Part shown: positions 4,127-64,000 of the stretch, one piece after another
Layout: the number at the start of each line of letters is the position of its first letter
Position numbering within the stretch: position 1 is the first letter of the stretch
Assembly: GCF_020382885.2 (NCBI RefSeq)
Contig: NC_058502.1
Span: forward strand, 6,643,501 to 6,707,500
Direction of reading: 5' to 3'
Origin: Scatophagus argus
Lineage: Eukaryota > Chordata > Actinopteri > Scatophagidae
DNA: 64,000 nucleotides
Notes under the pieces: generated by a model
What the model was told of the DNA's origin: nothing
Databases searched by the model: none
Seen by the model: the letters and a program-made list of their open reading frames with translations, nothing else
Program-made: the position numbers and the translations under genes

Positions 4127-18886
<14,760 letters not shown>

Positions 18887-20675: not shown

Positions 20676-22266
20676 GTCTGTTTATTATATCACTGCCAGA
20701 GTAGACGAGAATAATTATCCGTAAGTGACATCTCGCAACATTACTTATCATTTTTATTTTACTATGTTTTTTATTTGTCGTGACCCTGAACCACCAAGGT
20801 TGCTGGTTGAATAATCGTTTCCCCCCCGTTTTGTGCTAAAACTAGTGGTTAGATAATAATTGTATTAGTTGAAAAACGATTGAAAAGATCCTGAAGTGAA
20901 ATCAGATAAATTGTAGGCCGTATGGATTTTCATCCCACATAATATCAAGTTCACACCAGATAATATAGTATTGTTTTCCCGCAATATAACACCTTGTTCT
21001 CAAATTTAAGTTAGCTGTCATAAACATTTTTAATATTTTTATCATGATCGGAGCTGCAACAATTAGTTGATAAATCATTCATTCAAATGGAAGAAAACGA
21101 CAGCAATTTTTATCATCAAAAGAATCAACTGATTAACTATAATGAAAATAATCATTCGACTTGGGATACTGCCAGTGTCAATTCACAACTTAATCACCAT
21201 TTTGTTAAAGAAGTGAGAATATAAAAGATGTCTTAGGTTCTCTACTCATTTTTTTTTCTCAGACATCTCTCAGTCGGCCATCTGCAAAGAGGAAACTCCC
21301 CCCGAGCTGCACCACTGTGAGCACGAGCTGAGCCCCAGCGGGGACCCAGAGCCTCGACACGTTAAAAAGGAAGACGATGAACTCTGGGCCGGTCAGAAAC
21401 ATGAAGAAGAAGAAGAAGAAGAGGCTCAAGAGGTTAAGGTTGTTGGTGACTCATATCTGCCTGATTCATCTGACTGGGAGCTGAATGAGCAGGAGAACAC
21501 AAAACCACCTTTGCAACCTCAGACTGAAAATGGTGAAAGTGAGACGCACTTTCAGGATCTGCGGGAAACTAAAACGATACAGGTCTTTCTACCTCTTCCC
21601 TCAACTTCACAAACTCTGATCCAACATGAAAGCTTGCAGGACGTAAGGGAAAACGAAAGACCTGCTGAAAGTTTTGCAAACCAACTGCAGACCGATGGAA
21701 GACAAAACTCCTGTATCACTTCCACAAAATCCACCGAGTCAATTCATTTGAATGCAGTGGCACCTCATCGTTGCAATGCGTGCGACAGATCTTTTTCCTC
21801 CAATCAGAATTTGGTAAATCATGCTTTTCGGATACATTTAAAGGACACAGATGTCCTCTGTGCTGTGTGTGGAAAGACCTTAGAGTCCACTGAAAGTCTC
21901 ACCGTGCACCTTAAGTCACACAAGGGCTCAAAATGTTGTCACATGTGTGGTAAACACTGCAACAGTGCGACCTCTCTGACTGAACACATGGCCAGCCATG
22001 CTGGCGTGAAACTCCATCGCTGTCATGTTTGTGGGAAAGAGTGCAGCCGGAAAGCAGACTTAAAGATACATTTGAGGATTCACACGGGCGAGAAGCCTTT
22101 CTGCTGCTCTTACTGTCGTAAACATTTCACCCACAGTGGACATCTAAGGAAGCACATGAGAAGCCACACAGGAGAGAGACCGTACAGGTGTGACATCTGT
22201 GGCAGAGGGTTTCTACAGAGTACACACCTAAAATACCACCTACGGACTCACGCTCAAAAATATTAA
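20495..22266 (+). CDS. C2H2 zinc-finger protein (two coding exons, six fingers)
   Basis: This is a probable nuclear DNA-binding transcription factor. Exon 1 is 20495-20675, exon 2 is 21263-22266, with donor ACAG|GTCTGT and acceptor TTTCTCAG|ACATC. Together they make 1185 nt, or 394 residues. Residues 1-60 form a charged, probably coiled-coil N-terminus (LAAAAEEIFQVFERTIAKYE), a type that heads many fish C2H2 proteins. An acidic linker follows, with a run of Glu residues from a GAA repeat near 21405. Six fingers span about residues 231-390, each with the C-x2-C-x12-H-x3/4-H pattern intact. Canonical TGEKPF and TGERPY linkers join fingers 4-5 and 5-6; the earlier linkers are irregular. No orthologue can be named, because this family expands by lineage. 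The start has A at -3. Confidence 0.9.
21048..21162. repeat. Fish interspersed repeat (ATTAATCGATTAGTC-type) in the zinc-finger intron
   Basis: GAGCTGCAACAATTAGTTGA at one end and TAATGAAAATAATCATTCGA at the other match the start of the same repeat family, as at 16218. It is diverged and truncated. Confidence 0.5.
21263..22266 (+). CDS. Zinc-finger gene coding exon 2
   Basis: Encodes residue 61 to the stop: an acidic region (HVKKEDDELW and a Glu run), a non-conserved spacer and all six fingers. Having the fingers on one exon is usual for C2H2 genes. Stop TAA is at 22264-22266. Confidence 0.93.
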
Positions 22267-60400: not shown

Positions 60401-61564
60401 ACGAGCTTAAAAAAAGATCTAAATCTCTAACAGCAGAAGCAAGAATCAAACTTACAGCATGCAGCTCCTGAAAAATGTAAGAGGAAACAGATGCTTGTGC
60501 TGCTTTGACGAAAGGCAGAGGAAGAGAAAGTGGTTCAAAAATGACAGTCCAATCTGTAGAGGCCTGCGCTCTAAAAGCTATTAGCTAGCCTAATGCTACA
60601 AAACACGGTAGCTCTTAATGCCACACAGAGGGCCAAGCGCTGGCAGGTCCGCTACAAGACAATAAAGGCCAGATAAAAAGCATCAGCTGTAAAATTAAAA
60701 ACGGATGAAACTGCGGCTCAGGGGCTCGAGGCTTCTTGCAGTTCTCTGCGAGGTTACAATCACACAATATTAAAAGGGAAACACAGAGACAGAAAAATTT
60801 ACTGAGAAGCCTGACAAGATGAAACCTGATCTGAGAGGTTTACTATGTTACCTGATCAACACACCTCAAAACTTAGTGTTGAGAAATAAATACATGGAGG
60901 CAGGTAGGTGAACTAGAAGTACATCAGAGGGAGAAAAATAGTTTTGCTTGATTTCCCGCACTCTTCTGTTCTCAGTTCAGATTTGTACAACCAGACACGC
61001 TCAACATTTGACAGTTAAAACAGCTTCTTCAGTTTGACATGGTTTCAACTTACTTCCAATTCAGCAGAATCATAAAATCCATTTCCTGATTTTACTGAAA
61101 TAATAAAACATAACAATGACCTTATTATTAGTCGTTAATTAGTCGCTTGTGCTTTCAGGGAATATTAATTAACAGGCTGAAGTGTCTGGCCCGTACAACA
61201 GAACGATTACATGCACAGAAGAGGATTTTATTTGCATCCATCGTTGATAACAGCTGCCCACGTCGGTGTCAGTTTCCCTGAATTACAGCTCAGTCCTGAA
61301 GCAAGTGCAGTCCACTACCAGCAAAGATGTGTGTGAGCCTACAGTATACTTTACAAAACTAGCTGCATCAATAACAGCATGGCACAACAGAGAAGATGAC
61401 AGTCCATCGGGTCCTGCAAGAGGTTATGCCGTCAGTTCCTCTGCTGGGTCCTCTCATGAACATGCAGTTTCTGCTTTGAGGCACTGGGGGGCGATGAAGA
61501 GCACAGTACACAGCAAGCCTACAGGTCCACAAGAGCAAATAAAGATGGGACAGAGACATGATGA

Positions 61565-61738: not shown

Positions 61739-61858
61739 TCAGTGAGTCTTTAACTTGGTGTGCTGTGAGCCCTGTTCCGTCAAGCTGGCTTTGATAGAGT
61801 TAACCACCGTCTGCCTGACGTTGTCTTCCATATAATGTTCACTTAATGGCTTCAAAAC
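61739..61858 (-). CDS. atl2: atl2 C-terminal exon (VLKP type)
   Basis: The acceptor ACCTGCAG leads into 39 codons, [20 protein letters not shown] through TKLKTH, and stop TGA at 61739-61741. This is the conserved amphipathic-helix tail of ATL2. Confidence 0.92.
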
Positions 61859-63999
61859 CTGCAGGTGAGGAGAAAGGGGAGACAAAAAGAGGGTTTTGTG
61901 TGAGAACAAGTCAAACTAACTCAGCAGAAATCAGTTCATAAAAGGGGACAAAGAAACTGAAAGAAAGCAAGTTAGGAAAGAGAGAAACATTTAAAATAAA
62001 GGAACAAAAACAGGATACAGTCTCCGACATGCTGACCGAACATAATCAACTCACAAGACAACAGAACAAAACTTCTTCAACAGAATAAGAAAAAAACATT
62101 AAAGGAAAAAGAAAGCAGCCAGCTAAGATTAATAACCGTTTGGGCAGGCTTTAAATCCTTGAGATTATGAGATGGACCCAGCGCTACATTCAGTGAAGTT
62201 CAAAGGATGTCCACGCTGAGTGGGATCCAGGGGCGAAAGTATAAGAAACCAGCACCACCGGGCTGAAAATTAATAATAATAAAATAAAAAAAGCCAGCAA
62301 ACTGCAGAAGTTTCAGCATTAAAAGTAAGTTTAACAGTCTGTAAATCCACAAGTCGTCCAGCAGCTACTTAGTCTTCTTGTAGTTGTTGTTGAGAGGAGA
62401 CAGAGCTCTGAGTCCCAGTGTCACTCCTGATGGGAATGAGGGGAGGAGAGAGACGGGCCAAGCCAGGCGGCTCCTGACAGGCTCCAAAAGTTTGGAAAAC
62501 ACCTGAGAGAACAGCAGGGAGGAACGAAGGAGTTAAACAGGGAACAAGACTGACAGGCAGACAGATGGTGGAGCAGAAAGAGGGGGAAAAAAAGATGGAG
62601 AGAAACTGATCCCGAAGTTTGGGGAGAGATTAAGGAGAAATATGGGGAACAAAAGAAAAGAGGAGAGATGAATGACTGAAGAAAAACGGTAAATGTTGAA
62701 CAATATAAATGAAAAGAACACAGGAAACCGGTAGCAGGAAGTGGAGGGAGAGAAAAGGAAAAGGAAAGGAAATGAGGCAGGATGTTGTGAACGTCAGGCA
62801 GGCAGAAGATCAGAAAAAAGGGACGCAACACCTCTCACCTTTCTGACTGTCTTCTGTAAAGCAGAGGAAAGGGGGAGAGAGACAAAAGCAGAGGAAGGGG
62901 GGAGAAGTCAGAGGACACATGAGGGCTACGTTTGTGGAGCATCCCAAACATTCAAGACACTCAAATAGATGAAAAACACAGACAATCTGGCTTCATATTT
63001 GTACTCCTGAGCACAGAGGTCAACAAATGATGGCCGACCGCAGAGAGAGAAAATAAAAATGAGTGCTGACAGAGTGTCAGTGTGGAGGGTGAAGTGAAAC
63101 CCTTTAGAGTATGTGAGATGGACGATGGGATGTGAAGACACAGAAGACAATCATCAACATCTAGTGGACGGAAGGGAAAACACAGAGACAACAGGACAGA
63201 GTTTTGGTTCTCGGGCCTTTAAAAAAAAAACAACAAAACCTAAAAGTGAACAGTAATGAAAGAAACTTCAGTGAGAAAACCACAAGAAAATCAGAGGAAA
63301 CAACAATAGCTCAGATGATAAAACACAGACACACACTGTAGTGTATACTGTTGAATTCCCGGAGAAAAATAAAATGAAGAAAAGGTCACTCACTTAATAA
63401 ATTAATTAATAAATAAAAATGTTGTTGTTACTGTCATTTTCCTAATGTAATGAAGACAGTTTCTATATTATTATAAACCTAACGAACCAGCTGCAATAAA
63501 ACGGAATCTGCTCAACAAACTTCCATTTTCCAGTTCTGCCCCATTTCACCTACAGTGTACCTACAATTTCTAGCTTAAAATGCCTGATATAAACTCCTAT
63601 AGCATAATATCTCAACAACCATCAACAACAACCACTATGAATTTAGCCATTTAATTGTTATCCTTTCAGCCAAACCAGGTGAACTAACCTGGGCACAAAC
63701 ACACACACAGACACACACAGACTACCCACCTGTTCCCAGAGTGTCTCGGCCACCAGATCTATCATCGTTCCCACCTCCCGAAACTCTCCAGAATACTTCA
63801 CATACGCCCAGACGCAGAGCGACAGCAACGCCAACCCCATGACCAGGTTAGCCAGCGCTGCTAAGGTGCTCAGACCGATGAAGCCCGTCACCCCCGACAA
63901 CACGTAGGTGACAAACATGACCGCGAAAAGTGTGGCGGGTGTGCGCGCTGTGTAGAAGATGTTTTTGCCGTCATTGTGCTTGGAGAAGTTGCTGTAAGC
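61739..63999 (-). CDS. atl2: Atlastin-2-like ER-fusion GTPase, C-terminal part only
   Basis: Atlastins are dynamin-related GTPases that fuse ER tubules. Only the 3' end of the gene is in the window; the GTPase domain and middle domain lie beyond 64000. Exon 63730-63999 starts in frame at the window edge with [20 protein letters not shown] and covers the membrane hairpin: [20 protein letters not shown] and [20 protein letters not shown], then [18 protein letters not shown]. It ends at CAG|GTGGGT in phase 0. Two in-phase terminal exons follow: 62365-62502 and 61739-61858. The latter's tail ([20 protein letters not shown]) matches the human ATL2 main tail closely; the former's starts VFSKLLEP and ends LNNNYKKTK, resembling the alternative ATL2 tail. 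The paralogue call rests on these tails; ATL1 and ATL3 tails differ. Strand and identity are secure; the exact transcript set is not. Confidence 0.9.
62365..62502 (-). CDS. atl2: atl2 alternative C-terminal exon (VFSK type)
   Basis: An acceptor TCTCTCAG leads in phase 0 into 45 codons starting [13 protein letters not shown], ending LNNNYKKTK, with stop TAG at 62365-62367. The tail is basic and differs from the VLKP tail. The surroundings are pyrimidine-rich on this strand. As it has no visible nearby AATAAA, the transcript may read through to the shared 3' UTR. Confidence 0.75.
   Translation of the reverse strand: MFSKLLEPVRSRLAWPVSLLPSFPSGVTLGLRALSPLNNNYKKTK
62400..62900 (+). repeat. Purine-rich tract over atl2 alternative exons
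   Basis: A/G-rich on the plus strand, so pyrimidine-rich in the atl2 transcript. It provides the strong pyrimidine tracts of the microexon and creates a spurious Ser/Phe/Leu-rich 136-codon frame. Confidence 0.65.
62839..62853 (-). CDS. atl2: Candidate 15-nt atl2 microexon
   Basis: On the minus strand, a long pyrimidine tract ends in CTCTGCTTTACAG, followed by AAGACAGTCAGAAAG (Lys-Thr-Val-Arg-Lys) and the donor GTGAGAGG. Fifteen bases in phase 0 fit between the hairpin exon and either terminal exon without breaking the frame. A UGC motif 8-10 bases before the exon is a feature of neural microexons that depend on SRRM4. It is not proven to be used. Confidence 0.5.
63730..63999 (-). CDS. atl2: atl2 membrane-hairpin exon (partial, runs off the window)
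   Basis: Encodes the end of the middle domain and the two hydrophobic segments of the intramembrane hairpin. The 90 codons are open throughout. The donor is GAACAG|GTGGGT. Confidence 0.93.
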
Positions 64000-64000
64000 C

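Follow-up and report, generated by a model that had tools for sequence, protein, structure and literature searches.

A conserved 15-nucleotide microexon in atl2 of Scatophagus argus, probably the counterpart of the RSPRK cassette of human ATL2-3

The atl2 locus and its microexon

The 3' end of atl2 is read from the minus strand and lies in the final 2.3 kb of the window (the whole 64,000-nt stretch of Scatophagus argus DNA analyzed here). A 15-nt exon, AAGACAGTCAGAAAG, lies between an exon that ends in WEQ and two alternative atl2 tails; it encodes K-T-V-R-K (codons AAG ACA GTC AGA AAG) with phase 0 on either side. The exon names 12 and 13a follow the human usage found in excerpts of PMC10454310, and 13b is a label coined here. 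The features of the region, from exon 12 to the last tail, are the following.

63730..64000, minus strand: atl2 exon 12, which ends in LWEQ; it encodes the membrane hairpin and amphipathic helix and continues past the window edge
62907..62911, minus strand: branch-point-like CTGAC with its A at -55, a consensus match only
62854..62906, minus strand: acceptor tract ending in TTTACAG; leaving out the final three bases, 46 of the preceding 50 are C or T
62839..62853, minus strand: atl2 microexon (KTVRK), phase 0-0, with an identical insert in the annotated proteins P0001 (Chelmon), P0002 (Etheostoma) and P0012 (Seriola)
62833..62838, minus strand: intron part of the 5' splice site AAG/gtgaga, 10.6 bits
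62365..62502, minus strand: coding part of tail 13a (VFSKLLEP...NNNYKKTK, stop), of the type that comes after RSPRK in mammalian models
61739..61858, minus strand: coding part of tail 13b (VLKPLSEH...KLKTH, stop), taken here as the equivalent of the tail of human ATL2-1

The exon 12 piece matches a solved atlastin chain (3x1d_A, E 1.5e-25), and a Pfam search of the same piece returned no match. An earlier note on this DNA had placed the microexon at 62839..62853, and a re-reading of the sequence bears out its letters, coordinates, strand and phases. The exon is also, as that note proposed, an in-frame atl2 microexon; it places two Lys and one Arg after WEQ, beside the tail that governs autoinhibition. 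Its position directly after the WEQ exon, its frame and its 15 nt are those of the ATL2 cassette, and the length falls within the limit of about 27-30 nt for in-frame neural microexons dependent on SRRM3/SRRM4, as that limit is given in two abstracts.

Both tails start in phase 0, 13a at 62502 and 13b at 61858. Tail 13b is presumably the equivalent of the autoinhibitory tail of human ATL2-1. Twelve poly(A)-signal hexamers were located, none of them between the microexon and 13a, and none from the 13a stop to the AATAAA at 61232 (the hexamer-free stretch is 62364-61233, minus strand). Because no hexamer lies between the 13a stop and 61232, the two tails may use a common 3' end past 13b.

Other genes are apparent in the window. 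Two pieces on the minus strand (4788-12194) hit adenylosuccinate synthetase (PF00709), with the second hit only just over the cut-off; they are probably parts of one gene. A C2H2 zinc-finger protein of 349 aa is encoded by a long single reading frame on the plus strand (21217-22266). A nucleoside transporter exon (PF01733; 54660-55055, plus strand) lies downstream of atl2 in convergent orientation.

Conservation of the insert in atlastin-2 proteins

Two protein searches, one with the spliced tail of the window (best 120 of 989 proteins) and one from a tarpon protein (best 120 of 184), were pooled to 192 distinct atlastin-2-type proteins; several rows are near-duplicates, so that shares among them are not frequencies. 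Among these matches, a five-residue insert is found at the WEQ junction in 140 of the 192, is absent from 45 and was left unparsed in seven. All 140 inserts fit the pattern [KRM][TSM]x[RK][KQ], and among the matches listed they divide into RTPRK (47), RSPRK (29), RTSRK (23), RTVRK (16), MTARK (8), KTLRK (4), KTVRK (3) and others (10). Of the unparsed rows, read by eye, P0060 and P0067 carry the insert with an abnormal continuation, and P0188 has four residues.

The second teleost type of atl2 has RTPRK. The listed mammals have RSPRK, as does P0164, a caecilian, while P0192, a sawshark, has RSPKK. KTVRK and RSPRK are identical at two of five residues, the last two (RK) being common to both. The conservation that the earlier note had proposed to check for is found at protein level: in annotated proteins among the matches listed, from fish to mammals, the insert or a variant of it is kept at the same junction. 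Inclusion also appears optional, as annotated models with and without the insert occur in one species in Gymnodraco (P0009/P0022), Pygocentrus (P0125/P0182) and Hoplias (P0124/P0183). The protein models are mostly automatic predictions, which taken one by one may lack transcript backing.

In the atlastin-2 matches listed, 138 of the 140 inserts precede 13a and two precede 13b, whereas the 45 parsed insert-free models divide into 31 before 13a and 14 before 13b. The search queries contained both the insert and the 13a tail, and the share with both is therefore inflated. Nevertheless, a 13b protein with the insert should outscore one without it, yet the counts are 2 versus 14; microexon and tail choice may thus be coupled, which is a hint only, drawn from the matches listed. 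The two models that join the microexon to 13b, P0050 (Synchiropus) and P0096 (Eucyclogobius), represent a combination absent from the human variants described in the excerpts of PMC12312388.

Paralogous cassettes in the same genome

The assembly contains four atlastin genes, named here from their matches: the atl2 of the window, a second atl2 (C2), atl1 (C15) and atl3 (C12). At the junction that holds the window microexon, the second atl2 carries AGGACTCCTCGAAAG (RTPRK) and atl1 carries GGGAGCACAAATGAG (GSTNE), each of 15 nt between AG and GT and each with good splice-site scores. The atl3 hairpin exon ends in ...VVLEQ followed by GT. A scan of 5.9 kb of atl3 for cassettes of exactly 15 nt found none.

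Atlastin-1-type proteins (best 120 of 173) were collected with a query that contained a human ATL1 tail with GSTNE. Among these matches, the junction reads GSTNE in 58, GNTNE in 16 and GNTHE in one, has no insert in 39 and has other short pieces in three. On inspection, three more rows that were left unparsed also have GSTNE, among them one from a shark and one from a ray; the ATL1 cassette is thus probably at least as old as the jawed vertebrates. A common origin of the ATL1 and ATL2 cassettes is likely.

The two atl2 copies differ in their tails. The second (C2:28119300-28135300) has a 13a-type tail, and no 13b match was obtained within about 14 kb after it (tblastn, E 1 or better), whereas the window copy has both. 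This suggests that the atl2 duplicates may have divided inhibited and uninhibited forms between them.

Splice sites and acceptor layout

The microexon is flanked by the acceptor ...cctctgctttacag and the donor gtgaga. By position matrices made of unfitted frequencies, the acceptor scores 13.4 bits, compared to 12.5 for 13a and 13.7 for 13b, and the donor is on a par with that of exon 12 (10.3 bits). Both sites are strong and comparable to those of the neighboring exons. With relaxed cut-offs, both strands of the window and sites 3-51 nt apart, the microexon ranks first of seven acceptor/donor pairs, although its lead is narrow (24.0 versus 23.9 for a 3-nt pair). The runner-up is a possible 3-nt exon (CAG; 3183-3181, minus strand) with a strong acceptor and donor, and may be due to chance. 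At the microexon's own two thresholds, it is the sole pair in the window. The same thresholds returned one pair from 500 random first-order Markov introns of 1222 nt (0.002 each), a figure biased toward the candidate, from whose own scores the cut-offs were taken.

The acceptor has TGC at -10 (62863-62861) and at -37 and is free of AG over 72 nt. The three atlastin microexons, those of the two atl2 genes and of atl1, share a TGC 5-10 nt before the exon; their AG-free stretches measure 72, 137 and 106 nt, and pyrimidines make up 46, 45 and 40 of 50 bases. Nineteen further acceptors from these three genes served for comparison. These derive from 27 neighboring match pairs, of which seven remained open and 20 were resolved (seven with TGC); one of the 20, evidently misplaced (score -8.1, no TGC), was dropped. 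Their placements are rough and were taken regardless of constitutive use. Medians in the 19 are 41 nt AG-free and 28/50 pyrimidines; TGC occurs at -15 to -5 in seven, and an AG-free stretch of at least 72 nt in one. The four tail-exon acceptors are AG-free over 38-57 nt (none reaching 72) and have 30-40 pyrimidines of 50 (39-40 in three) and TGC in three.

The AG-free length is thus the best separator of microexon acceptors from the others. Pyrimidine richness is only partly useful as a mark, given the three pyrimidine-rich tail acceptors. A UGC near the acceptor is weak by itself because seven of the 19 others have it, and as stand-alone proof of SRRM4 control it is rejected on these counts and those of the tail acceptors. 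According to the excerpts of PMC12626420, UGC together with a pyrimidine tract such as a UC repeat is the canonical layout of 42 of 95 zebrafish microexons and is linked to Srrm4. The UGC cue of the earlier note therefore stands in part: the acceptor tract as a whole fits this layout, whereas the UGC alone says little. A term search of the main texts of PMC12626420 and PMC12626424 found no naming of atl1, atl2 or atlastin. From the layout, neural inclusion through Srrm3/Srrm4 is putative but likely.

Human counterparts

In human, the C-terminal extension is alternatively spliced in both ATL1 and ATL2 (excerpts of PMC12312388, as are the variants that follow). ATL2-3 carries RSPRK, which is missing from ATL2-2, and the loss makes autoinhibition modestly stronger; the RSPRK variant has been tested biochemically, with Bryce et al. 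2023 as the reference cited there. ATL2-1 is nearly without fusion activity owing to its tail. ATL1-1 equals ATL1-2 plus the five residues GSTNE, the absence of which weakens autoinhibition. In excerpts of PMC10454310, the name ATL2-3 is used for another, truncated transcript.

The earlier note knew of no description of the exon. This part does not hold, as RSPRK of ATL2-3 is in print (PMC12312388, excerpts) and KTVRK is present in annotated fish atlastin-2 models. A literature search found no paper that names an atlastin cassette a microexon, an absence that proves no novelty because the exon is published under its residues RSPRK. Thus, the microexon is real, conserved and already known in substance, and with the human cassette described, the fish exon is best regarded as its orthologue.

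Alternative explanations

Good splice sites may pair by chance in an intron that is never spliced there. The near-equal score of the 3-nt pair lends this some color; however, only one comparable pair arose in 500 random introns (with cut-offs set on the candidate), two paralogues of the genome have 15-nt cassettes at the same junction, and many fishes, mammals and a sawshark have the same insert in their annotated proteins. Chance is a poor explanation when other species share the insert at that junction, and given this conservation a decoy is barely conceivable. A transcript might instead read through the microexon donor and stop in the intron, which would make the 15 nt the start of a longer terminal exon. 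Such a structure is reminiscent of the Gouania model P0067, in which RTVRK is followed by intron-like sequence, and of the Caranx model P0060, which extends beyond the donor. Poly(A) hexamers do not discriminate here, because none occurs between the microexon and 13a but none occurs after 13a before 61232 either. By contrast, the inserts of the matches listed run straight into 13a (138/140) or 13b (2/140), and a terminal exon is very improbable.

More weight is due to the proposal that the exon is a real alternative microexon but a ubiquitous minor choice, neither neural nor controlled by SRRM3/4. UGC is common in the other atlastin acceptors (7/19) and in the tail acceptors (3/4), and three of the latter are as pyrimidine-rich as 39-40/50. 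In addition, ATL2-2 (the 13a tail) is called a neuronal-specific variant in the excerpts of PMC12312388, yet in those of PMC10454310 it is also measured in breast tissue and tumors. Against this stand the long AG-free stretches of the three microexons (at least 72 nt, a length reached by one of the 19 comparison acceptors and by no tail acceptor), their pyrimidine content relative to the median of the 19, and the combination of UGC with such a tract, which is the Srrm4-linked layout (PMC12626420, excerpts). A non-neural choice is on balance unlikely, though a serious possibility.

Proposed role

The reading that best accounts for these observations, and one that is very probably correct, is that of an alternatively spliced 15-nt atl2 cassette, orthologous to the human ATL2-3 (RSPRK) exon and the positional match of ATL1 GSTNE, whose inclusion should by analogy slightly relieve autoinhibition. 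Inclusion would place five residues, most of them basic, where the amphipathic helix after the membrane hairpin ends, at the membrane surface and immediately ahead of the C-terminal extension; in annotated models it mostly goes with the 13a tail. By analogy to ATL2-3 versus ATL2-2, the insert may slightly loosen C-terminal autoinhibition and thereby tune ER fusion. This effect in fish is inferred from the human proteins, in which it is modest.

A broader proposal is that the cassette predates the split of ATL1 and ATL2, was kept in both vertebrate lines as a neural switch under SRRM3/4 control and then acquired opposite charges and effects, with GSTNE tightening ATL1 and the R/K-rich inserts loosening ATL2. 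This history is speculative and rather doubtful as a whole. If true, neurons could move ER fusion between atlastins by one splicing factor.

PMC12312388 names the release of atlastin autoinhibition in cells as an unsolved point, and its abstract links atlastin mutations to hereditary spastic paraplegia. Both autoinhibited paralogues have a conserved microexon at one hinge, with effects reported to be opposite in the two, and this would be a simple splicing handle on the release. The interest of the exon is modest and lies in its putative neural control, the possible coupling to tail choice, and the reversal of charge and effect between ATL1 and ATL2.

Comparison with known systems

The atl2 exon resembles the SRRM3/SRRM4-dependent neural microexons in length, frame, upstream UGC with pyrimidine tract, and vertebrate conservation. 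That class is defined by neural inclusion and SRRM dependence, whereas the atl2 exon is likened to it by sequence features.

Compared to the human ATL2-3 cassette, the exon belongs to the same gene and encodes the five residues that ATL2-2 lacks. Mammalian models place RSPRK as the fish models place their insert, after WEQ and ahead of a 13a-type tail. The fish form differs in having KTVRK for RSPRK (two of five residues identical), and at least two fish models join the insert to 13b.

The GSTNE cassette of ATL1 is, like the fish atl2 exon, 15 nt long, in frame and at the same junction. Unlike the atl2 insert, GSTNE has no basic residues, and the effects of loss in human are opposite: autoinhibition becomes weaker in ATL1 and modestly stronger in ATL2 (PMC12312388, excerpts).
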